64,000 nt of DNA from Rubrivirga marina (lineage in GTDB: Bacteria > Bacteroidota > Rhodothermia > Rhodothermales > Rubricoccaceae), in assembly GCF_002283365.1 (NCBI RefSeq), contig NZ_MQWD01000001.1, positions 2,823,749-2,887,748 of the forward strand, in the 5' to 3' direction. Numbering within the stretch: position 1 is the stretch's first letter; each line of letters begins with the position of its first letter. The position numbers and the translations under genes are program-made. Below the pieces are notes generated by a model. It did not search any database, was not told the origin of the DNA, and saw only the letters and a list, made by a program, of their open reading frames with translations. Of this stretch, positions 1,014-15,449 are shown piece by piece.

Positions 1014-1097
1014 GCCCGAGTGGCGGAATTGGTAGACGCGCACGATTCAGGGTCGTGTTCCCTTACGGGAGTGCTGGTTCGATTCCAGTCTCGGGCA
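1014..1097 (+). tRNA. tRNA-Leu (anticodon CAG)
   Basis: The seven-base acceptor arms pair (GCCCGAG at 1014-1020 with CTCGGGC at 1090-1096, discriminator A at 1097). There is a D-loop (AATTGGTAGAC), an anticodon loop with CAG at 1048-1050, a long class-II variable arm (GTTCCCTTACGGGAGT) and a T-arm (GCTGG TTCGATT CCAGT). The long variable arm and anticodon give tRNA-Leu. The CCA end is not fully encoded (ACCT follows). The 3' half overlaps the last codons of the recombinase on the other strand, which marks this tRNA as an integration site. Confidence 0.96.
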
Positions 1098-2622
1098 CCT
1101 TAGAGGACCGGTTGCTAGTCTCGGCGGCCGGTCCTCTGTCGTTTGCTGGTTTTCCGTCCCGTTTGCCCCGAAGTAGGCGGATGGACTCGGCCAACTCAGG
1201 AGTTCGATACGCGCCGTCCTCGAAGACGAGATTGCCGGGGAAGATCGAACTCAGGATGCGGTCCTTCGCCTCGATCCCGGCGGCGGCGTAGTAGCGCGGG
1301 AGGTCCGCCAGCAGGGACAGGCCGTAGCGCGCGTTGTGGAGCAGGTCGCTCGTGTCGTCGCCTAGCGCCTTGCGCCGGTCCTCTAACTCCCGCTTCTGCG
1401 TCTCGTAGCGCTCCACCAATCGGATGAAAGCATCGTGCGGGATGGAGCCCTCCACCAGCTTCTCAGCAGCGTCCGTCAGCTTCTCGTCTAGCGCGTCGAT
1501 CTCCGCCTCCACTTTGGCGCTGGCGGCCTCTCGGCTGCCCTCCCGTTCGTCCTGCACGTCCTTGAGGACGGCGAGGTAGAGCCGCGCTATCTCGGGAGCC
1601 ACATGGATGCTTCCGAACAGTGCCAAGAGTGCCCCATGTGCGTCTTCGGCTCGGAACCGCACTGAGCACGGATGCTGGCAGTGGTAGTAGTGGTAACGGC
1701 CTCCCTTCGCGGAACTGGCGGTCAGGTTGCCGCCACACTCTGGACATGTGAGGTGCCCCCGCAGCGGGTACTCCGCACGTCGGCGGGGGCGAGGGCCGCC
1801 GGTCTTCTGATTCCCGTCGAGGATTTCCTGCACACGCCAGAACGTCTGCTCCGAGATCAGCGCCTCGTGCAGCGACGGCACCAGTCGTTCTGGTTCGTCG
1901 CCGTAGGCGTCGACGCGGATCAGCCCAGCGTAGGCCGGGTTATGAAGGAAGTTGTAGAGTTGGCTCTTTCCGCAGCGTACGCCGCGCTTGCGGATGTGCA
2001 ATAGGGCCTCGGACGGGAGGTAGACACCGGAGGCCACCATCTCGAATGCCTCGCGCATCGCGGGGGCATCCTCGTTCGGGCGCATCAGGGGCCGGTCCGT
2101 TTCGTCACGGCCTTTCGAGTACCCGAGCGGCGGCTTGGTGACGTAGCGGCCCTCCAGTTTCGCTCGGCGCATCCCGTCGCGCGTGGCCTGAGAGCGGCGA
2201 AGGTTGTCAACCTCAGCTACGGCGAAGTAGAGCGCTTTTAAGATCAGGCTCTCGGGGCTCCCGTCTACCGGTTGCTCGACGCATTGGAGTTCAACCCCGA
2301 GGCCTTTGAGTGTAGCGGCCATGCTCCAGGAATGCTCGCTGCTGCGCGAGAACCGATCCCACTTGAGGACCAGCAGGAGATCCACATTCCCTTTGTTCGT
2401 TCGGATGTAGGCCAGCAACTTTTTAAACTCCGGCCGCTCAAACGTTTTCGCGGAGTAGTCGTCTTGGAAGTGCGCTGCGACCTCGATCCCTCTTCTCAGG
2501 CAGTACTCCCTAAGCTTCGCCTCTTGGTCGCGGAGGCTGTAACCGCGTTCTGCTTGATCGTCCGTCGAGACGCGAGTATAGATGATCGCACGGCGCGTCC
2601 TTTTGCTGGTGGGCATGTTCAT
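1063..2622 (-). CDS. Large serine recombinase (site-specific integrase)
   Basis: The protein is 519 aa with the full large-serine-recombinase layout. An N-terminal resolvase domain carries YTRVSTDDQ with nucleophile Ser19, and KWDRFSR near residue 90. A Recombinase domain follows (about 155-280), then a zinc ribbon with Cys293, Cys296, Cys315 and Cys319, and a coiled-coil segment (about 365-425). Such enzymes cut and rejoin DNA at att sites through a 5'-phosphoserine intermediate. The last codons (KVPETGIEPALP) are antisense to the 3' half of tRNA-Leu, so the reading frame crosses the insertion junction and the native C-terminus may have differed before integration. An ATG at 2616 is an alternative start. 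It overlaps the small ORF at 2510-2737. Confidence 0.93.
   Translation of the reverse strand: MNMPTSKRTRRAIIYTRVSTDDQAERGYSLRDQEAKLREYCLRRGIEVAAHFQDDYSAKTFERPEFKKLLAYIRTNKGNVDLLLVLKWDRFSRSSEHSWSMAATLKGLGVELQCVEQPVDGSPESLILKALYFAVAEVDNLRRSQATRDGMRRAKLEGRYVTKPPLGYSKGRDETDRPLMRPNEDAPAMREAFEMVASGVYLPSEALLHIRKRGVRCGKSQLYNFLHNPAYAGLIRVDAYGDEPERLVPSLHEALISEQTFWRVQEILDGNQKTGGPRPRRRAEYPLRGHLTCPECGGNLTASSAKGGRYHYYHCQHPCSVRFRAEDAHGALLALFGSIHVAPEIARLYLAVLKDVQDEREGSREAASAKVEAEIDALDEKLTDAAEKLVEGSIPHDAFIRLVERYETQKRELEDRRKALGDDTSDLLHNARYGLSLLADLPRYYAAAGIEAKDRILSSIFPGNLVFEDGAYRTPELAESIRLLRGKRDGKPANDRGPAAETSNRSSKVPETGIEPALP
1102..1137 (+). terminator. Hairpin terminator of tRNA-Leu
   Basis: There is a perfect 10-bp inverted repeat: AGAGGACCGG at 1102-1111 pairs with CCGGTCCTCT at 1128-1137 around a 16-nt loop, 4 nt after the tRNA. 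No strong T-tract follows. A rearranged copy of this sequence occurs at about 9277-9330. Confidence 0.6.
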
Positions 2623-2835: not shown

Positions 2836-3675
2836 TCAAAGCTTTTCTCTAAGCACTTGGGAGAGGTGCACAGTCTTGCCGTCCTGCCTCTTGACGGTCA
2901 GCTCCGTGTGATCCGCCTCCTCTAGTAGTTCCTCGAGGGTCTTCCCGTCGCCGGCACGTTCTCGCTCCAACATCACAGGACGCCCCTCCTTGAGCTTGAC
3001 TCTCAGTCTGAGGTTGCCGGGGTCTCGGATAGCGTGAATCACCTTGAACTCGGCGTCGCTAACCAGTACGCCCGGCTTGTACTCTGGCGTTAGGTCGAGC
3101 TTCGGGAGAATCTTTTGGACTACTCGGTTGAGGCTGATGCGGACGTGGTCAGCAAGAGGGGTGAACAACTGGTTGTTGGCGTACTCGCGTTCGTTCGCCA
3201 ACTCGACCTCGCCATCTTCGAACACGAGCAGATAGGCGGGCACGCCTTGCATTGCTTCCAGCACGTAGAACTCGAATAGTCTCAGACCCCCCGCTCGAAG
3301 GCCTGGCGGGTCGAGTTTGCGGATGCCCTGCTTGGCCTCACGCAGCGTCGAACTCGGAACCCCGAACCGACGGAGCTCCATGATCGAGCCAAGCCACGCG
3401 AGGTCCATGATGCTGTACCGTCGCCAGCCTTGTCCGTCCTCCCTCGGGTCGTCCACAACGCCTTCCGACTCCCACAGGTTTACCACGCGCGAACTAGCGT
3501 CTGTGCGCTCCGCAGTGAAGCGTTTGGCGCGGATGGCCGCCAGCATCTCGGGTAAATCGTCCGATTCAACGAGCCCATAGAACCGGACGAAGTGGCCGTC
3601 ACCCCGCACCACCTGCCGACCGGCTCGGAGCCGCCGCAGGTTCTCTTTCTGGAAGGTTGATTGATCAGAGCTCAA
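2836..3675 (-). CDS. MerR-like transcriptional regulator of the island
   Basis: The protein is 279 aa. Residues about 60-115 (VVNLWESEGVV, WRRYSIMDLAWLGSIMELR, RFGVPSSTLREAKQGI) fit a MerR-type winged helix: a recognition segment, a W-R-R-Y turn and the helix that reads the second half-site. The C-terminal 150 residues match no domain I recognise. The start codon is TTG at 3675; no ATG or GTG gives a complete N-terminus. The start lies inside a large inverted repeat (3674-3744), which suggests autoregulation. It sits between the recombinase pair and the restriction-modification gene on the same strand, so it probably controls one or both. Regulator role is likely; MerR assignment is moderate. 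Confidence 0.7.
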   Translation of the reverse strand: MSSDQSTFQKENLRRLRAGRQVVRGDGHFVRFYGLVESDDLPEMLAAIRAKRFTAERTDASSRVVNLWESEGVVDDPREDGQGWRRYSIMDLAWLGSIMELRRFGVPSSTLREAKQGIRKLDPPGLRAGGLRLFEFYVLEAMQGVPAYLLVFEDGEVELANEREYANNQLFTPLADHVRISLNRVVQKILPKLDLTPEYKPGVLVSDAEFKVIHAIRDPGNLRLRVKLKEGRPVMLERERAGDGKTLEELLEEADHTELTVKRQDGKTVHLSQVLREKL

Positions 3676-3747: not shown

Positions 3748-6700
3748 TCAGGCCCCGTACTCCCCCCCCTCTGTGAGTCGGGCTTGGCCGAGGCCGACTA
3801 GGGTATCCAGCAGCGTGGATACGTCGGCGCGACGGGCTCGGATGAAGTGGCGGGCCACCTGCTCCACGGTCAGAGGACCGGGCGCGCTCTCCAACGTGCG
3901 CCGGAGTTCCAGCGCGCGGCCGGGCAGGGTGTCGGGCCACGGGACCGGCTCGGCGGCAACAGCTAGGGCCTCGACGGCCTCCACCTCGACGCCGAGGCCG
4001 AGTTGGTCGGCGGCACCGGGGTTCTGGTAGGAGGGCCGGAGGTAGCGCACGCGCCCGGCGTCCTCCTCCTGCTGTCGGGCCCCGTTCAGCGCGACCACGC
4101 GCCGCAGAATGTCCTCGTCTGAGAGGGAGGCGGGCCAACCGTAGGCCTCGAACACGGCAGCGTCGAGCGCGTCGTGAAGCTCCTGGAGGATACCCACCTG
4201 CCCCCGTTCGTACGTGTCCCGCGTCTTGCCCTCCAGCGGTACGCCGGACCGGACGGCCTCCAGCGCGTTGTAGAGGGCAGTCAGTGTGAGGTCAGGGTGC
4301 TCCGCCTGCACGCGGTTGCGGTGGGCGTGCAGCAGTTCGGCGCGGTCCCGGATGGTGCTCTTTTGGTCCCCCGTCGGGTCCGGGAACGGGAAGGGCTGAA
4401 ACGTCTTCGTGCTCGTGTAGCGCGGGTCATTGCCGACGCCGAGACGGCCGCCAACACCGAGAGACCAAACGACGTGCGGGCGGCTGGAGAGCACGCCGAG
4501 GGTGTAGGAGTCGTCAGAGGCCACGGCGATCAGCGCCCCGTCAGGCAGGATGTCCCCGTCGAGGAAGGCGAAGACGCGGTGCTTGGACACCTCCGGGGTC
4601 ACGATGTAGCGGGGCAGGCCGCGCACGGCGTCCCGAAATGCCGGGATGGTCTCGCCATGAAGCCACCAGTTTTCTCGGCGGACCTTCCGCTTGTTCTGGT
4701 CGCGGGCGGGCTTCACGCGGTCCCGGACGCGCTGGTAGAGCGCGGGCACGCGGTCACGGGCTTCCTCGGCCGTTAGGCCGTAGAGGTCGATCACTCGCAC
4801 GTCGCGTGAGATCCGCACCACATCGCTCCCATTGCGAAAGCGGGGGAGGTGGAGCGTCACGGCGGGGTCAGCGCCGAGGCCCAATGCCCGCGCCTCCTCC
4901 TCCGTCACGGTGAAGTCGCCCACCAGCTTGGCGCCCATGAAACTGAGGTCGCGGTTGGATTCAAGCGGCTTTACCCCAGTCACGTCGACGCCTATTGTCA
5001 GGTCCGCGAACACCTCTCCCCGGCGGTACTCCATCTCCAGTCGCCGGGCATCGTCTCCCTCGACGCGCTCCTCACTCATCACGGTCGCCAGCTCGCCCTC
5101 GGCCGGACCAAGCACGCCCACGGTCATTGCTACGCGGACGGCGGCGCCGAGCGTGCCGTCTACCCATGGGTGATCCGGCACGGCGTAGGCCAGCGCCAGC
5201 GGCGGGTCGGCTGACAGGTGCCGTTCGACTACACGCCGGTTGTTCGTCTGCGTGATCGAGTTAGTCGTGATGAACCCGAAGCGCTCCGCCCGCCCGTGCC
5301 GCACGGCGTCGGCCGCCTTCTCCCACCAGTACATCACGAGGTCCGCCGATCCGGGGACCTCGGGGTAAGCCGCCCGCAGGGCCTCGGTGTACCCGTCGCC
5401 TAGGGCGTCCCGCATCATCTGGCTTCCGACGAACGGCGGGTTGCCCACAAGAAAGTGTGAGGACGGCCACGCGGCCGGGGTCGGGTCGGCGTAGTCGAAG
5501 ACCGGCACGCGGGCCTCGGTGTCGGGGACAGGTTCGCCCGTCGCGGGGTGCGGCATGGTCGTTCGCCCGTCCCAGACCGTCAGCGGTTCGCCGTCGTCTC
5601 CGGTGCGCGGGATCCGCTCGGCGTAGTCCAGCACGGCGTCCCGGCACACCACGTTGCCGTAGGCCTGGAGCACGGGATCGGTGATGGCCTGAGGACCCCC
5701 GTAGGTGCGGAGGTGCCACTGGAGGTACCCGATCCACAATACGAGGTCCGCGAGCGCGGCGGCGCGCGGGTTGACCTCGATCCCGAGGAACTGCTGCGGC
5801 GTCACGGCGGCGCTCTCCATCTCCAGAGCGGCCACGCCGTACTGCTCCTGCGTCTGTCGCACCTCGCCTTCCAGCCGTTTCAGGTGTTCCAGGGTCACGT
5901 AGAGGAAGTTGCCAGATCCGCAGGCCGGATCGAGCACGCGGACGCTCGTCAGGCGACGCTGGAAGCCGTTCAGCGTCTCCGTGACGGCCGCTCGGGTCTT
6001 GCGGGCTCCGGCGGCCCGTGCCCGGTCGGTGGGGTACTCGCTCGTCTCGTGCACTTCCTCAAGGCTCGCCACGGCGGCCTGTATGGCCTCCCACTCTTTG
6101 CGGAGCGGCTCGATCACGGTCGGGACGACAAGCCGCTCGACGTAGGCCCGAGGCGTGTAGTGGGCGCCGAGCTTGTGCCGCTCTCGGGGGTCCAACGCCC
6201 GCTCTAGGAGCGTCCCGAAGATGGCCGGTTCAACGTCGCGCCAGTTGGCCCGAGCGGCGGTCAGCAAAAGGTCGAGCTGAGGCCTCGATAGCGCCGGGGC
6301 GTTGGTCTCCGAGAACAGCCGCCCGTTGAACCGGCGGACGCGGGCGCGGAGGTCGGGGGAGAACCCACCCGCGTCCATCGTGTGCCAGAGCGCCGCGAGC
6401 CCGTCGGGGAGCACGTCGAGACTGTCCCGGTAGCTCTCCAGCAGGCCCGTGAACGCGCGCTCGGGGAGGAGGCCGGTGTCCTCGGCGAACATGGTGAACA
6501 GGCTCCGAGTCAGGAAACCGAACACCTCCGCCGGGGCATGGCCGTCGGCCTCTAGCGAGGTCGCCAACTCCGCGAGTGTGACTGCGAGCGCGCGGGTTGC
6601 CTCGGCCTGCCTCCGGCTCGGGTCCAATGCCTCGGGGTCCGTCCATACCAGCCTCAGCCGCTCTCGCACGGCGTCATCCCTTAGGTCCGTCAGGAAGACG

Positions 6701-7242
6701 CGGTAGCCCCGTTGGTCAGGGGAGGGGACGTAGCGCTGCGGATGGCCGAAGTTGGCGTAGAGGTCGATGCAGTGCCCCACGTCGATCACGAGGAGCAGTG
6801 GTGGTACTGGCTCTCGCCAGTCGCCCACGTCGAGGTTTCGCGCGTAGCGGGCGGCCTGCTCTTTCGCGGCCCGCATCGTCCGTTCCCACGCGGCCGATCC
6901 GCGCGTGCCGTGTCCAGCGCTGCGGGTCTTCCCGCGCCTGCGCCTTTCCTCGTCTACGCCCTGCTTCGTCTCGGCCACAAAGCAGCCGCGCCGGTAGAGG
7001 TCGATCCGGCCTCCGGCCTGCTGCGCCTGATCGTCGAAGACGACGGGCCGCTCGAACACGTAGGCGTCGCGCGCCGGGTTCTTCGTGGCCGGCTCGGGCT
7101 CCGCGACGCCAAGCACGTCCCGGCACAGCTCTTTCAGAAACGACTGCGCGTTGGCGAGTTCAGCAGCTTGGGCGCGTTTCCAGCGCTCTATAAAGGCATC
7201 TACCGGGTTCGGGACTGAGGTGTTTGGTCGGAGCATCGGCAC
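3748..7242 (-). CDS. Single-chain restriction-modification enzyme, MmeI-like (type IIG/IIL)
   Basis: A 1164-aa bifunctional enzyme predicted to cleave DNA and to methylate adenine N6 with S-adenosylmethionine. A PD-(D/E)xK nuclease site lies near residues 80-93 (GRIDLYRRGCFVAETKQG). A helical linker follows, then SAM motif I DPACGSGNF at about 438 and catalytic motif IV NPPF near 600. The C-terminal half contains the target-recognition region, with VALNGARQQEEDAGRVRYLR near residue 1080, a stretch typical of MmeI-like enzymes. In this class one specificity domain serves both activities, so no separate methylase is needed. It is the main cargo of the tRNA-Leu island and probably a phage-defence gene. 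Specificity cannot be read by eye. Confidence 0.9.
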   Translation of the reverse strand: MPMLRPNTSVPNPVDAFIERWKRAQAAELANAQSFLKELCRDVLGVAEPEPATKNPARDAYVFERPVVFDDQAQQAGGRIDLYRRGCFVAETKQGVDEERRRRGKTRSAGHGTRGSAAWERTMRAAKEQAARYARNLDVGDWREPVPPLLLVIDVGHCIDLYANFGHPQRYVPSPDQRGYRVFLTDLRDDAVRERLRLVWTDPEALDPSRRQAEATRALAVTLAELATSLEADGHAPAEVFGFLTRSLFTMFAEDTGLLPERAFTGLLESYRDSLDVLPDGLAALWHTMDAGGFSPDLRARVRRFNGRLFSETNAPALSRPQLDLLLTAARANWRDVEPAIFGTLLERALDPRERHKLGAHYTPRAYVERLVVPTVIEPLRKEWEAIQAAVASLEEVHETSEYPTDRARAAGARKTRAAVTETLNGFQRRLTSVRVLDPACGSGNFLYVTLEHLKRLEGEVRQTQEQYGVAALEMESAAVTPQQFLGIEVNPRAAALADLVLWIGYLQWHLRTYGGPQAITDPVLQAYGNVVCRDAVLDYAERIPRTGDDGEPLTVWDGRTTMPHPATGEPVPDTEARVPVFDYADPTPAAWPSSHFLVGNPPFVGSQMMRDALGDGYTEALRAAYPEVPGSADLVMYWWEKAADAVRHGRAERFGFITTNSITQTNNRRVVERHLSADPPLALAYAVPDHPWVDGTLGAAVRVAMTVGVLGPAEGELATVMSEERVEGDDARRLEMEYRRGEVFADLTIGVDVTGVKPLESNRDLSFMGAKLVGDFTVTEEEARALGLGADPAVTLHLPRFRNGSDVVRISRDVRVIDLYGLTAEEARDRVPALYQRVRDRVKPARDQNKRKVRRENWWLHGETIPAFRDAVRGLPRYIVTPEVSKHRVFAFLDGDILPDGALIAVASDDSYTLGVLSSRPHVVWSLGVGGRLGVGNDPRYTSTKTFQPFPFPDPTGDQKSTIRDRAELLHAHRNRVQAEHPDLTLTALYNALEAVRSGVPLEGKTRDTYERGQVGILQELHDALDAAVFEAYGWPASLSDEDILRRVVALNGARQQEEDAGRVRYLRPSYQNPGAADQLGLGVEVEAVEALAVAAEPVPWPDTLPGRALELRRTLESAPGPLTVEQVARHFIRARRADVSTLLDTLVGLGQARLTEGGEYGA

Positions 7243-7467
7243 ATGAGTCGCTGGCCAATACTATTCCCACACCTCGACCTGAGCCCTTCCGAAATCGAGA
7301 ACCGAACGAACCCGCAGGAATCCGCTCTGTCAAACGAGAAGCGAGCCTAGCACGGCGCCGCGCACATCGTCCAGAGGACCTGACGCAGGGCTGTCGATGC
7401 ACAGTGGCTGAACTTGGCCGAGACCCTGGGTCGGTCTAGGGTTCCCGTCAGTCTATGGTTACCAATT

Positions 7468-7492
7468 TGACCCTGACCCGGTGTAGCGGACG
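7468..7492. repeat. Probable terminal inverted repeat of a decayed IS3-family element
   Basis: TGACCCTGACCCGGTGTAGC, continuing GGACG, lies just beyond the C-terminal end of the transposase remnant, in the position and orientation expected for an IS3-type end. It resembles the sequence at 36190-36215 next to the other IS3 remnant. No partner end is seen on the other side. Confidence 0.4.
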
Positions 7493-7503
7493 CCCGGTCA
7501 AGG

Positions 7504-7734
7504 CTATGCGGCAAGCCTGAGCGCTTGCCGTTGGTGGTGCCGGTCATCGTGTGCGACCAGCACGAGGAAGCCATGCGACGCATGCCGCCGTCGCGTGCTG
7601 TAGAGGGTCTCGAGGTAGTCGAAGAGCGCTGACCGGACCTCGGCCTGCGTCTCGAACCGGTGGTCGTGGATGGCCTCCGACTTCAGGGTCACGACCACTC
7701 TATGGTTCTTCTGAATACCCTCCACTTTTCGCAC
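7504..7734 (-). pseudogene. IS3-family transposase (OrfB) C-terminal remnant
   Basis: The frame reads LKSEAIHDHRFETQAEVRS and then LFDYLETLYSTRRRHASHG, which is the end of the IS3 OrfB integrase core (typical form: LK.E..h..rf.t..eA...i..Yie.fYN..R.Hs.lG), including the final catalytic Glu of the DDE triad. Only about 65 residues survive; the D-D part is absent and the first 12 codons of the frame are unrelated. It lies within the 530-bp gap between the restriction-modification gene and the next cassette. The rest of the gap (7243-7467) shows no gene. Confidence 0.8.
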
Positions 7735-7772
7735 CAGAAGGATTCAAGCCCCTCGCTGTCGAACCTGACAAT

Positions 7773-8618
7773 TCAATTGCCCCGCCGAAAGACTTGGATC
7801 AAGCGCTTCCAGGTCGGCCAAGCGTGGTGAGGTTTCTTCTTTCCGCCGTAGGTATTCCTTCTCTCAGTTGATGGTGCCGCAGAAGGGGCGGACTCTATAG
7901 CCTCCGCTTCATCTGGGCCGTTGATCTCGTTGAATAGTTGGTATGCTGTTTGGTCGAATACGTTTATTGACCTGAGGGAGCCAACTGGAATGATCACTTC
8001 AAAGTCCCCTCTGGTCATATTGTTGAATCGACTGGCTTCGTGGTCGACGTTGAGCAGAACCTGTGTGTAATCAGTGGTTAGTTGTAAAATATGTGTTTTT
8101 GGATCGCGATATCCGCTCACTGACGGGATGAGCGTGATGTATCGCCTTTCTTGTGCTGGATCAACTGGTGCCGACACATAGCCAATGTAGACCTTGCCCG
8201 AATCCATGGTGATGGATACCTGCCACTTGTTATCTATGGCACGGTCTAGCAATACCTCCAGGCGGTCGCCATCGCTTTTCACGACCTCGCGGTGTCGCTC
8301 CTCTGCGTCCATTCGTGGGTTGAGGATTTCAGGTGCGGCTAGTCCAAGTGCCAGCGATAGCAACCCGCTACCAGCAAAAGGGAAAGGCACATACCACCTC
8401 CACGATGCACCTAGCCATCCTCCTAGGTGCTCAATGTCGAACCACACTATTGCGCGAGTGAGAGTCCAAGCTGTCGCGATCAGGCCGACGCCAACTAGCG
8501 CGGACAAGAAAACCAATCGCTGGCCAGACTCCCTTTTGACGTACGGTCGCGTGTAATGCCAACGGCTGACGAACCAAAATCCCCCCAGTAAGGGGAGTAG
8601 CAGCACGTTGTATGGCAT
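7773..8618 (-). CDS. Membrane protein of unknown function with a cytosolic beta-rich domain
   Basis: A 281-aa protein with three predicted membrane segments near the N-terminus (YNVLLLPLLGGFWFVSRW; LVFLSALVGVGLIATAWTL; FPFAGSGLLSLALGLAAP). A soluble domain of about 170 residues follows (KWQVSITMDSGKVYIGYV, RRYITLIPSVSGYRD, THILQLTTDYTQVLLNVD). The alternating strands with SGKVYIGYV recall a small barrel that could bind a nucleotide or RNA, but I assign no family. It follows the 69-aa gene by 21 bp and probably forms an operon with it. Its codons are more A+T-rich than its neighbours', which marks recent acquisition. Position in an island with a restriction enzyme and recombinase makes a defence role possible, not shown. 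Confidence 0.75.
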   Translation of the reverse strand: MPYNVLLLPLLGGFWFVSRWHYTRPYVKRESGQRLVFLSALVGVGLIATAWTLTRAIVWFDIEHLGGWLGASWRWYVPFPFAGSGLLSLALGLAAPEILNPRMDAEERHREVVKSDGDRLEVLLDRAIDNKWQVSITMDSGKVYIGYVSAPVDPAQERRYITLIPSVSGYRDPKTHILQLTTDYTQVLLNVDHEASRFNNMTRGDFEVIIPVGSLRSINVFDQTAYQLFNEINGPDEAEAIESAPSAAPSTERRNTYGGKKKPHHAWPTWKRLIQVFRRGN

Positions 8619-8639
8619 CGGCTAGGCTCGACTACGCCT

Positions 8640-8849
8640 TCACTTTGTGAGTCGGCGGCGTACGAGTCGTCGCGGGCGAACGCGCTTTGCTTTCGAAGCC
8701 TTGACAAGACGTCCCATTTGGGCAAGAGCGCCCCTGACTTGGGGGTCATCTAGATAGTACCCAGGCTCAACGTAGAGCACGCCTGAGCTCGTCAGGCGCA
8801 CCCCAGGGTCGTGCTTGTGCTCTGAGGCTTTTCCTTTTGTCGAGCTCAT
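8640..8849 (-). CDS. Small basic hypothetical protein, partner of the membrane protein
   Basis: A 69-aa protein starting MSSTKGKASEHKHDPGVRLT, with a central SSGVLYVEPGYYLDDPQV motif and a strongly basic C-terminus (KASKAKRVRPRRLVRRRLTK) that could contact nucleic acid or membrane. It lies 21 bp upstream of the three-helix membrane protein on the same strand, with the same A+T-richer composition. No family recognised. The predicted order, small soluble protein then membrane protein, is seen here only. Confidence 0.55.
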   Translation of the reverse strand: MSSTKGKASEHKHDPGVRLTSSGVLYVEPGYYLDDPQVRGALAQMGRLVKASKAKRVRPRRLVRRRLTK

Positions 8850-9438
8850 TTTGTCAGAGCGCCATGTGGCCAGTTCTGGCGCTGGTTTCCCATAATTGAA
8901 CGCTGCTTCCAGCGTTTCAGTGCCATGAATGTACTCCGCTCCTCGGTATCGGTTGCTCCCAAGCCCGAAGCAGGAGGATGGAGCCGCCAGTCTGGTGTTG
9001 GCAGCGCACTAGCGCCAACAGAACCTCCTGTACCGGGAATGCAGAAGCTGTGTCCCGCCCCTTTGGGAGGCAGAGGGGACGTCCGAGAATGAGGTCGTAG
9101 AGAGTTGGAAGCCTGAAAGGGATATGCCTACGTGACTGGGTCGCTACCGGGGAACGGGCCTCTCGTATCCGGCAAGTGGGTCCAGCAAGGTCACAGGGAC
9201 TAGCGGGGCCAACGCCGCTAGTTGCTCCATCTCGGCTACGAAGCGGTTCGATACCAGACCACTCAGGGGCACCCTCAGAGGGCCGTTGAGAGCGATCTCG
9301 GCGGCCTTTTCTGGTTCCGGTCGGTCCTCCTGAGGACGTCACGGCGCGGGGGCTGCTGGCGTATTGCTGGTGCCCGGTGCCCCACTCGGGGGCCGGTGGA
9401 GGCGCGCTCGCAGCCACCCGCAGAGGCGGGAGCGAGCG
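8850..9438. other. Gene-free stretch at the island's right end
   Basis: No convincing coding frame. It holds a short hairpin (AACGCTG at 8899-8905 with CAGCGTT at 8910-8916), an imperfect palindrome (TGTTGGCAGCGC and GCGCCAACA, 8996-9020), the tRNA-Leu-like segment at 9245-9330, and a small palindrome GTCCTC-CT-GAGGAC (9324-9337). This concentration of symmetric sites just upstream of the tyrosine integrase fits an attachment region. Confidence 0.5.
9245..9330 (+). repeat. Degenerate copy of the tRNA-Leu 3' end and terminator (candidate att site)
   Basis: The same blocks occur in the same order and strand as at 1076-1137. GGTTCGATACCAG (9245-9257) matches the tRNA GGTTCGATTCCAG with one change; GGGCACC ends near 9273; AGAGGGCCG lies at 9277-9285; TCTCGGCGGCC (9296-9306) is identical to 1119-1129; then, after a 16-nt insertion, GGTCCTC resumes. 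It cannot fold as a tRNA because the T-stem no longer pairs. An old attR left when the island entered the tRNA would look like this. Confidence 0.55.
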
Positions 9439-10548
9439 ATGGCAGGACTCCACAAGGACAAGCGGACGGGGATCTACACCGTCCAGTTCTACGACGCGGA
9501 CCGGTCGCCCAAGAGGAAGCAGGTGTCGACGGGGACGCGCGACTTCCGGACGGCGAGGAGGCTCCACAGGCGGTGGGAGGCGGCGTACGCGGAGGGCCGT
9601 TACGACCCGTGGACCGACCCTCCCCCGGAGGCGACCGAGGCGCGGCTGGTCAGGACTGTGACGACCCCCACGCTGGCTGAGGCTCGCGACGCCTTCCTGC
9701 TCAGCAGGTCCCACCTCGCGTCGAACACGAGGCTGAACTACGAGCGGGTCACGCGCTGGTACGTCGAGCACGCGGGGGGCGATCGGCCCATCGCGACTGT
9801 CAACAGCGACTCGGTCACTACGTGGTTGAACACGCGCGATGTGCGGCCGGTATCGAAGGCGAACTACCTCCGGCACCTCCGGGCGTTCGTCCGGTTCTGC
9901 GTCGAGCGCGGCTGGGCGGCCTCGGACGTCACGGACGACGTGGGGTTGGAGCGAGTGCCACGCCAGTTCCCCAAGGCCCTCCGGCCCGACCAGGTCGAGG
10001 CCGTCGCCGCGTACGCCGAGCGTCACTGTCGGGACGGCGAGGAGCGGTCGGCCGCGTGGGCCGCCCAGTTCGTCCGCCTCGGGGCGGAGACGGCGATGAG
10101 GCGGAACGGGCTCCACCTGAGGTGGGACCACGTCGACCTGGAGCGCGGGCACCTCACGGTGGCCTGTACGGACGCGTTCACGTCGAAGTCCGGGGCCGAG
10201 CGCAGGATCCCGTTGTCGTCGCGGGCCGCCTCTGTGCTCGACGATCTCGGAGGCGGGCGGTCGTCGCCATCGGGGTTGGTCCTGGTCGCGGGGCGGGGGA
10301 GGGGCGTTCACCCCGGGACGTGCAGCAAGACGGTCAAGCGGTTCGCCGTGGCCGCGGGCGTCCCGGACCTCACGCCCCACGTCCTCAGGCACTCGTCCGT
10401 CACGTGGCTGATCGAGAGGGGCGTTCCCGTCCCGGTCGTCCAGCGCTTCGCGGGCCACGCCGACGTCGCGACGACGATGCTCTACTGCTCCGTCGCCGAC
10501 GACGTCGCGGGGGACCGGATCCGGTCGGCGCTGGACGGGCCCGGTTGA
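9439..10548 (+). CDS. Tyrosine recombinase / phage-type integrase
   Basis: A 369-aa protein that should catalyse strand exchange between att sites. An N-terminal DNA-binding arm (VQFYDADRSPKRKQVSTGTR, residues 16-35) and a core-binding domain (about 78-160) precede the catalytic domain. The active site is complete: Arg221 (ETAMRRNG), Lys250 (FTSKSG), His314 and Arg317 (HVLRHSS), His340 (FAGH) and nucleophile Tyr349 (MLYC). ATG 9439 is chosen over an in-frame ATG at 9364 because the extension is arginine-rich filler and GGCGGGAG precedes 9439. It converges on umuC. A fragment of a paralogue lies at 29188-29307. Confidence 0.93.
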   Translation: MAGLHKDKRTGIYTVQFYDADRSPKRKQVSTGTRDFRTARRLHRRWEAAYAEGRYDPWTDPPPEATEARLVRTVTTPTLAEARDAFLLSRSHLASNTRLNYERVTRWYVEHAGGDRPIATVNSDSVTTWLNTRDVRPVSKANYLRHLRAFVRFCVERGWAASDVTDDVGLERVPRQFPKALRPDQVEAVAAYAERHCRDGEERSAAWAAQFVRLGAETAMRRNGLHLRWDHVDLERGHLTVACTDAFTSKSGAERRIPLSSRAASVLDDLGGGRSSPSGLVLVAGRGRGVHPGTCSKTVKRFAVAAGVPDLTPHVLRHSSVTWLIERGVPVPVVQRFAGHADVATTMLYCSVADDVAGDRIRSALDGPG

Positions 10549-10598: not shown

Positions 10599-11987
10599 TC
10601 ATGCCCGGACGGCAGCGATCTCTCCCCACCGCGTCGTGTAGCGCGGGCTCATCCGCTCCCTTCGCATCTCCCACTGCGGCGCCCCGGCCGCCCCGTCCCG
10701 CGCCTTTCTGAGCGCGCTCAGCGGTCCCATCGCCGCGAACGCGACGGCCCGCCGCCCGAACCGCCGGTTGCACGCGTCGACCGCGTCCATGAGCCGGCCC
10801 TGCGCCGCCGTCCACTCCGGCGTCCGCTCGTCGGCCCCGAACAGTGCGCCCTGCTCCGTCCCCACCGGCCGGAGTTCATTGAGGATCACGCCGGCCTTCC
10901 GGTACCTGTAGGTCCGGCCCTGCGCGTCGGCCGCGACGAACGCCTCGCCCAGCGCGAGCATCGCGGCCCGGATGAGGTCGGGCGTCCGGGCCGAGGCGAC
11001 CGTCAGGTCGCGCTCGACCCAGCCCGTCCGGTGTGGCCCCTGGCCAAAGCCCTTCGTCGTGCAGAACGCGCCGACCCGGCCGGCCACGAGCCCCTCGCGC
11101 CGGAGCTTCTCCGCCGCCCGCGCCGCGTGCGTCGCCACGGCCTGGCGAACCACGTCGACGTCCTCGACCGGCTCGCCGAAGGAGCGGGAGCGGACCATCG
11201 TCTTCCGCTCGACCGGGCCGTCCCCGTCGCGGACGCACGCCGTCCCCCGGAGCTCGTGGACCGTCCTCAGGAGGACGACGTTGAACCGGCTCCGGATCAC
11301 GGCGTCGGGCGCCCCGGCGAGCTTTGCCGCCGTCGAGAACCCGAGGTCGCGGAGCCGCTGACCCCACCGCCGCCCGACGCCCCACACGTCGCCGACGTCG
11401 AGCGAGGCCAGGAACGCCTCGCGGTCGGGGTGGCCCCAGAGGCAGACGACGGGCTCGCCGCCGGCCTTCAGGAGCGTCCGGGCGTACTCGCTCGCCGCCT
11501 TCGCGAGCGTCTTCGTCTCGGCCACGCTCACGCGGACGGGGACCCCTGTCCACCGGAGCACGCGGCGCCGGATCTCGCGGGCGGTCGCTTCCATGTGCTC
11601 GCGGAGCGCGTCGCCGGTCCGCCCGCCCGTCGGGAGGTGGACGAACGCCTCGTCAATGCTGTAGGGGACGACATGGGGCGAGACGGAGAGGAGCGTGTCC
11701 ATGACCCGCCGGCTCATGTCCCCGTAGAGCGTGTAGTTCGAGCTGTAGACCCGCGCGCCCATGTCGGCCAGCTCGCGTCGGCACTTGAAGAACGGCTCGC
11801 CCATCCGGACCCCGGCGTCCTTCACCTCCTGGCTCCGGGCGATGACGCACCCGTCGTTGTTCGAGAGGACGGCGACGGGGAGGCCGTCGAGCGAGGGGTC
11901 GAAGACCCGCTCGCACGAGACGTAGAACGCGGAGCAGTCGACGAGGGCGACGAGCCGACGGAGCGGGACGACGGACGCTGGGGACAC
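10599..11987 (-). CDS. umuC: Y-family DNA polymerase, UmuC subunit (orphan)
   Basis: A 462-aa error-prone polymerase of the Pol V type, used to copy past DNA lesions. The N-terminus has LVALVDCSAFYVSCERVF with metal-binding Asp17, then SNNDGCVIARSQEVKDAGV, and SIDEAF (Asp112, Glu113) completes the acidic site. Little-finger and C-terminal UmuC regions follow (GWVERDLTVAS, GRTYRYRKAGVIL). I favour GTG 11987 because the fused relative at 19556 begins MSPRRLVAL at the equivalent place; ATG 12077 would add 30 unalignable residues. No intact umuD lies upstream, although UmuC normally needs UmuD'. Every umuD-like sequence in this window is broken. Fragments of this gene recur at 15305, 19500 and 25480. 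Confidence 0.92.
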   Translation of the reverse strand: MSPASVVPLRRLVALVDCSAFYVSCERVFDPSLDGLPVAVLSNNDGCVIARSQEVKDAGVRMGEPFFKCRRELADMGARVYSSNYTLYGDMSRRVMDTLLSVSPHVVPYSIDEAFVHLPTGGRTGDALREHMEATAREIRRRVLRWTGVPVRVSVAETKTLAKAASEYARTLLKAGGEPVVCLWGHPDREAFLASLDVGDVWGVGRRWGQRLRDLGFSTAAKLAGAPDAVIRSRFNVVLLRTVHELRGTACVRDGDGPVERKTMVRSRSFGEPVEDVDVVRQAVATHAARAAEKLRREGLVAGRVGAFCTTKGFGQGPHRTGWVERDLTVASARTPDLIRAAMLALGEAFVAADAQGRTYRYRKAGVILNELRPVGTEQGALFGADERTPEWTAAQGRLMDAVDACNRRFGRRAVAFAAMGPLSALRKARDGAAGAPQWEMRRERMSPRYTTRWGEIAAVRA

Positions 11988-12087
11988 GAGGCGGGTCGGT
12001 GGAACTGGGAAAGAGGCTCCCCGCCCTGCCAACCCCCGTGTCACCGGCCCCGTCGGCGCCCGATGCGACGACCTCACAGTCGCCCCC

Positions 12088-15304: not shown

Positions 15305-15449
15305 CCGGAGCTCGCGGAGGACGACGCCGGCCTGGCCGGCCCCGATCGCCGGCCGCGACGAACGCCTCGCCCAACGCGAGCATCGCGGCCCGGATGAGGT
15401 CGGGCGTCAGGGCCGAGGCGACCGCGAGATCGCGTTCGACCCACCCCAA
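15305..15449 (-). pseudogene. umuC: umuC C-terminal fragment
   Basis: GWVERDLAVASALTPDLIRA, continuing AMLALGEAFVAAG, matches the intact UmuC nearly residue for residue (GWVERDLTVASARTPDLIRA). At DNA level the match continues with small gaps to about 15305 (CGGAGCTCGCGGAGGACG against the intact CGGAGTTCATTGAGGATC). Both ends are cut off abruptly. About 48 codons remain. Confidence 0.8.

Follow-up and report, generated by a model that had tools for sequence, protein, structure and literature searches.

A candidate two-gene anti-phage or superinfection-exclusion cassette with a predicted membrane-anchored Sm-fold protein, found in an island of Rubrivirga marina and on phages and plasmids

A pair of short genes in a genomic island of Rubrivirga marina is best explained, with modest confidence, as a two-gene cassette for anti-phage defense or superinfection exclusion that has not been described before and that phages, plasmids and islands have spread. 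We favor this reading because the cassette is located in the P2 hotspot, beside genes that score as defense genes, and at a tRNA-Leu site that holds defense genes in relatives. In the window, i.e., the whole stretch of 64,000 nucleotides that was analyzed (contig NZ_MQWD01000001.1), both genes have an ATG start and lie on the minus strand. The first, orfA (8640..8849), encodes a basic protein of 69 amino acids with 17 lysines and arginines against 5 aspartates and glutamates, and the second, orfB (7773..8618), encodes a membrane protein of 281 amino acids, present in a single copy in the genome. The stop of orfA and the start of orfB are separated by 21 bp on the same strand (8619..8639). The list of open reading frames thus bears out the small basic protein and the close pairing reported in a preliminary description of this DNA, which also held the genes to be more A+T-rich than everything around them. 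Indeed, the cassette, of about 1.1 kb, has a GC content of 0.544 vs. 0.729 for the window. Of 1259 same-sized windows, only 3 fall below this value, each of them overlapping the cassette. A promoter scan returned two promoter-like matches, both on the plus strand and none on the strand of the cassette, and a tRNA was the sole match of the Rfam scan.

The linkage of the two genes extends far beyond this island. An OrfA-like open reading frame lies directly upstream of orfB in 78 of 80 viral loci and in 27 of 28 bacterial loci (L108, L123, and L126 being settled on closer inspection), and the three loci that lack it (L062, L068, and L121) all start at a contig edge. A profile built from 13 OrfA members other than that of the window ranked the window frame 1st of the 388 open reading frames of the window (E 0.008), and a profile of 39 members again placed it 1st of 388 (E 0.25), a match that would be weak alone but falls at the right position. 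Across seven pairs of relatives, non-synonymous changes per site are far fewer than synonymous ones; dN/dS ranges from 0.16 to 0.30 for orfA and from 0.02 to 0.15 for orfB in four of these pairs, the other three being saturated at synonymous sites. Judged from these substitutions, both genes are under purifying selection. A chance pairing of frames in A+T-rich DNA was rejected since the pair is both conserved across phyla and under such selection, and the earlier view of a two-gene cassette is supported, the two genes forming a real and autonomous unit.

The structure of OrfB was predicted with AlphaFold2 as a single chain from an alignment of 43 sequences (mean pLDDT 85.2, pTM 0.72). Helices are predicted at residues 2-19, 32-63, and 80-99, followed by a further helix and a barrel (133-221) with strands at 133-138, 142-150, 160-171, 178-183, 208-211, and 215-221, a model that agrees with the three-helix membrane protein with a small barrel-like domain proposed earlier. 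At a hydropathy cut-off of 1.6, OrfB of the window shows one clear segment only, and at 1.3 three segments appear in 30 of the 43 family members. The loop between TM1 and TM2 is net positive in 37 of 43 members and that between TM2 and TM3 in 12 of 43. Since these charges fit the positive-inside rule, the protein is predicted to have its N-terminus outside and its C-terminus inside, with the barrel domain in the cytosol.

The region from about residue 115 to 223 is predicted to form an Sm/LSm-like domain, the model showing the helix and five-stranded barrel of the Sm fold. The 50 Foldseek matches listed against the PDB all come from snRNP/spliceosome, LSm or Sm-like entries (best E 8e-3, probability 1.00), and VIA-align 2, aligning 60-82 residues, gave Z scores that reach 9.0 for LSm/Sm chains and 8.2 for Hfq. 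Because best Z scores of 7-8 are common for unmatched models, the case for the Sm fold rests on the unanimity of the matches as well as on Z. The modeled domain (Z 8 to 9) is thus similar to the Sm/LSm/Hfq superfamily, from which OrfB differs in being membrane-anchored. The invariant residues K142, Y144, G146, P165, S168, G169, R171, and Y184 all fall within the domain, in which the SGYRD signature occupies residues 168-172.

Such consistent matches would also suit a membrane-anchored Hfq/LSm-like protein that binds RNA and regulates transcripts of the prophage or of the host, OrfA being its cofactor. However, Sm proteins bind RNA at loops L3 and L5, and the loops of OrfB that match them (151-159 and 185-207, with the register taken from the model) are the least conserved of the domain, with mean top-residue frequencies of 0.30 and 0.28, and appear to be devoid of conserved residues, conservation being concentrated in strands 2 and 3. 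Moreover, the fold does not imply RNA binding, as MscS channels have three membrane helices with the N-terminus outside and the C-terminus inside, followed by an Sm-fold beta domain that is not known to bind RNA. We consider an RNA-binding regulator quite improbable. The model of OrfA comprises a beta-hairpin (17-27) and a helix (36-57), with a mean pLDDT of 76.1, and a structure search with this model gave no fold match (best E 3.1).

Broken copies of the cassette bear on the roles of the two proteins. By inspection, orfB is broken next to an intact orfA in seven loci (L004, L015, L016, L066, L123, L126, and L130), both genes look damaged in L014 only, and no locus has orfA alone damaged. This hints at most that OrfB is the costly part of the pair: orfB is about four times longer than orfA, so that 0 of 7 losses restricted to orfA would arise by chance with a probability of about 0.2. 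The same pattern, together with the gene order, the small gene preceding that of the membrane protein and in relatives often overlapping it by 1 to 4 bases, could reflect a toxin-antitoxin module that stabilizes a mobile element, with OrfB as membrane toxin, OrfA as antitoxin and defense absent or secondary. The unequal gene lengths weaken this argument, and the large and strongly conserved Sm domain is, to our knowledge, unlike known small membrane toxins; we hold such a module to be unlikely.

If the cassette does serve defense or exclusion, OrfB would be its membrane effector and OrfA likely a small regulator of OrfB. With its N-terminus outside, three inner-membrane helices and a cytosolic Sm-fold domain bearing all invariant residues, OrfB as predicted could oligomerize at the membrane or form a ring there, which is the usual behavior of Sm-fold domains. 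OrfA, the product translated immediately ahead of OrfB, would bind the Sm domain and keep OrfB inactive until an infection cue releases it, and the freed OrfB would then breach the membrane or block the entry of phage DNA. The MscS channels mentioned above suggest a more specific scheme, as OrfB is also predicted to have three helices in the same orientation with an Sm-fold domain after them. By this analogy, OrfB might form an MscS-like ring whose Sm collar sits over a helix pore, with OrfA plugging or capping the collar; infection would remove OrfA, the pore would open and the infected cell would be depolarized. We regard this scheme as doubtful. OrfB differs from MscS in having neither a Pfam channel-family match nor a C-terminal alpha-beta domain, no MscS protein was seen among the Foldseek and VIA-align matches listed for OrfB, and TM3 shows no enrichment in small residues (0.26 vs. 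0.26 in TM2). Should it nevertheless hold true, phages of many hosts would be using a membrane-anchored Sm ring against their competitors, and such phage-triggered channels would form a new class.

OrfB has relatives not only in bacteria of several phyla but also in phages, prophages and plasmids. The phages include the P2-like Salmonella phages SEN4/SEN5, Klebsiella phage ST15-OXA48phi14.1, Cronobacter phage phiES15, and Pseudomonas phages U5/U6. Plasmid relatives amount to 31 records, 25 of them from Salmonella, and 19 of the 31 are typed as conjugative. In E. coli, relatives were present in 61 of 5426 genomes, 51 of which match over most of the query (the P2-type copy). A profile scan confirmed 176 viral loci, and the viral counts given here rest on 80 of them, which form 41 groups at 90% identity and 13 at 50%. 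The 28 bacterial loci belong to Ignavibacteria, Acidobacteria, Binatia, Proteobacteria, and others, and the family is sparse within the phylum of R. marina (5 of 395 genomes by profile search). Two weak matches in frames of 1000 amino acids (L006 and L007; E 3e-4 and 8e-4) were dropped because their genomes (G065 and G191) are outside these five.

The preliminary description recognized neither family, which holds for named families; OrfB does belong to phrog_3630 (E 9.5e-28, residues 110-239), a phage family whose function is not annotated. In the genome search, the C-terminal part of OrfB matched phrog_3630 at 5.1e-21 and the N-terminal part weakly, at 4.3e-4. Close as well is phrog_23864, again a phage family of unknown function; both entries, as returned, describe single families, without the paired small gene or the Sm fold. 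In PADLOC-DB 2.0.0, neither the 43 OrfB family members (0/43) nor OrfA, searched with the copies of the window and of one E. coli, had a match. Sequence search of solved structures gave low-complexity or chance matches only, and open-licence PMC papers, searched for the architecture, the PHROG and protein accessions, yielded nothing on the cassette. OrfB has a weak match to Pfam DUF6338 (PF19865; E 0.006) over residues 5-148, i.e., the membrane part and the first barrel strands, which misses the gathering score of that family (16.6 vs. 26.5 bits). Three of the 43 family members, including the window copy, match DUF6338 at E 0.01 or better (best 5.7e-5), most others having no match, and these sequence comparisons suggest that DUF6338 is probably a sister family. 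One study reports DUF6338 in biosynthetic clusters (PMC10433244). This report, as well as the position of some bacterial copies among ordinary genes, is consistent with a membrane protein that serves lysogenic conversion or housekeeping, is paired with a small chaperone and is irrelevant to phage competition. Against this, the family is sparsely distributed and located on phages, plasmids and islands, which leaves such a role with only a slim chance.

The location of the cassette in phages argues for a role in phage competition. In P2-like prophages and phages, it lies between the replication and portal genes (L013, L022, and L024, the last having no other annotated gene between cassette and portal); similarly, it is found downstream of the replication gene in L012 and upstream of the portal gene in L015. 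According to Rousset et al. (2022; PMC9122126), this slot is a hotspot of anti-phage systems in P2-like phages, where P2 itself carries old and tin, and also holds non-defense genes. Neighbors of the cassette include bSEFIR (L013, E 6.9e-103), HEC-06/DUF262 (L015, E 1.8e-55), a RecD-like protein and a DNA methyltransferase (L017, E 2.3e-50 and 2.9e-49), and a TIR gene (L022); the IncC plasmid copies have RecD-like and methyltransferase genes alongside.

The TIR gene of L022 belongs to a gene pair in the P2 hotspot (7385-8404) that encodes two proteins, one of 138 aa with three hydrophobic segments and a TIR protein of 200 aa with two such segments, the latter having no match in the phage collection. 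Among 5426 E. coli genomes, 2 contain most of the length of this pair. It stands next to the cassette in 2 of 51 cassette-bearing E. coli genomes, the 49 others having the cassette without it; the TIR neighbor is therefore incidental and the cassette an independent unit, and the possibility that OrfB is part of the L022 TIR system was rejected. In the same locus, nearly all matches listed among the 1255 E. coli genomes hit fall in a segment of roughly 100 bases that follows the cassette immediately downstream (around 7100-7200) and probably represents constant P2-phage sequence bordering the hotspot.

A broader sample of neighbors, made of 124 proteins of at least about 110 amino acids nearest orfB in 22 divergent loci of the 108, with no control set and with 5 of the 129 listed proteins left out of the alignment, contained 4 integrases, 3 M78 peptidases, 2 C5 methyltransferases, and 2 Fic proteins, next to many housekeeping genes. 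In several bacterial genomes, the neighbors are ordinary genes, and the neighbor evidence from bacterial and divergent viral loci is mixed. Location in a defense hotspot or island is seen at the P2 hotspot, in the IncC region and at the tRNA-Leu site, and is mixed in the bacterial loci. Accordingly, the link to defense made in the preliminary description is partly supported: the P2 hotspot, the defense-scoring neighbors and the tRNA-Leu site speak for it, the mixed bacterial neighbors and the lack of a PADLOC model for OrfB against it.

The P2-hotspot systems described by Rousset et al. (PMC9122126) include the TIR-transmembrane system AC1 and a system of three genes that lack known domains. 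The cassette shares their genomic slot and, like AC1, includes a membrane protein. It differs from AC1 in that a TIR gene is not part of it, none being present in the island of the window, and from the P2-hotspot systems in that OrfB matches no PADLOC model. If the cassette acts in defense or exclusion, it would be a compact and widespread system that PADLOC 2.0.0 lacks, with carriers ranging from P2-like phages and other prophages to IncC plasmids and to islands in several phyla. The parts at work in phage competition would then be joined by a membrane-anchored Sm fold. As natural cassettes reside in E. coli prophages, such a role can be tested directly in laboratory strains.

In R. marina, the island starts at a tRNA-Leu (CAG; 1014..1099, plus strand), its edge and probable integration site, which is occupied by islands in relatives as well. 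The island backbone follows with a large serine recombinase (1063..2622, minus strand), whose 3' end overlaps the tRNA, a MerR-like DNA-binding protein (2836..3675, minus strand) and a type IIG (MmeI-like) restriction-modification enzyme (3748..7242, minus strand; PDLC03627), which confirms the restriction enzyme noticed earlier. Next come a 76-aa remnant of an integrase-core (rve) transposase (7504-7734) that adjoins the cassette and is possibly a trace of its arrival, the cassette, and on its other side a tyrosine integrase (9364..10548, plus strand). At the far side of the island, no direct repeat matching the tRNA end was found, and the outer boundary was accordingly not located. Four relatives of the same genus or family had a match to the site and three were compared (the G297 contig was left out); all three carry the type IIG enzyme there. 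One (G298) has kept the recombinase, the MerR-like gene and the type IIG enzyme, with about 71-79% identical DNA, and lacks the cassette. Another (G296) harbors DruF (E 3.6e-124) with a DruM-like methyltransferase (E 1.9e-76) beside the type IIG enzyme. In the third (G231), the cargo comprises an integrase together with a PDC-S37/Hhe-like protein, and the tRNA end occurs a second time about 21 kb further on. Since the type IIG enzyme recurs while the other cargo (Druantia-like, PDC-S37/Hhe-like, cassette) varies, the tRNA-Leu site is an integration hotspot whose variable cargo consists at least partly of defense genes, and the cassette fills the slot here.

Other elements of the island and its surroundings deserve mention. 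The MerR-like protein has a homolog at the same place in L149 (2802-3653) and, because it is kept between the recombinase and the type IIG enzyme in this relative, may control the island or the enzyme. A UmuC-like polymerase gene (10599-12077) recurs several times in other parts of the genome, with two of these copies at 88%, and a 112-nt piece of it is repeated at 15336-15447 (90%). Finally, the segment 12152-13218 contains seven 47-nt repeats, spaced by 156-189 nt, inside a frame with DGDGxxD-type repeats that we take to be reminiscent of beta-propeller (FG-GAP-like) proteins.
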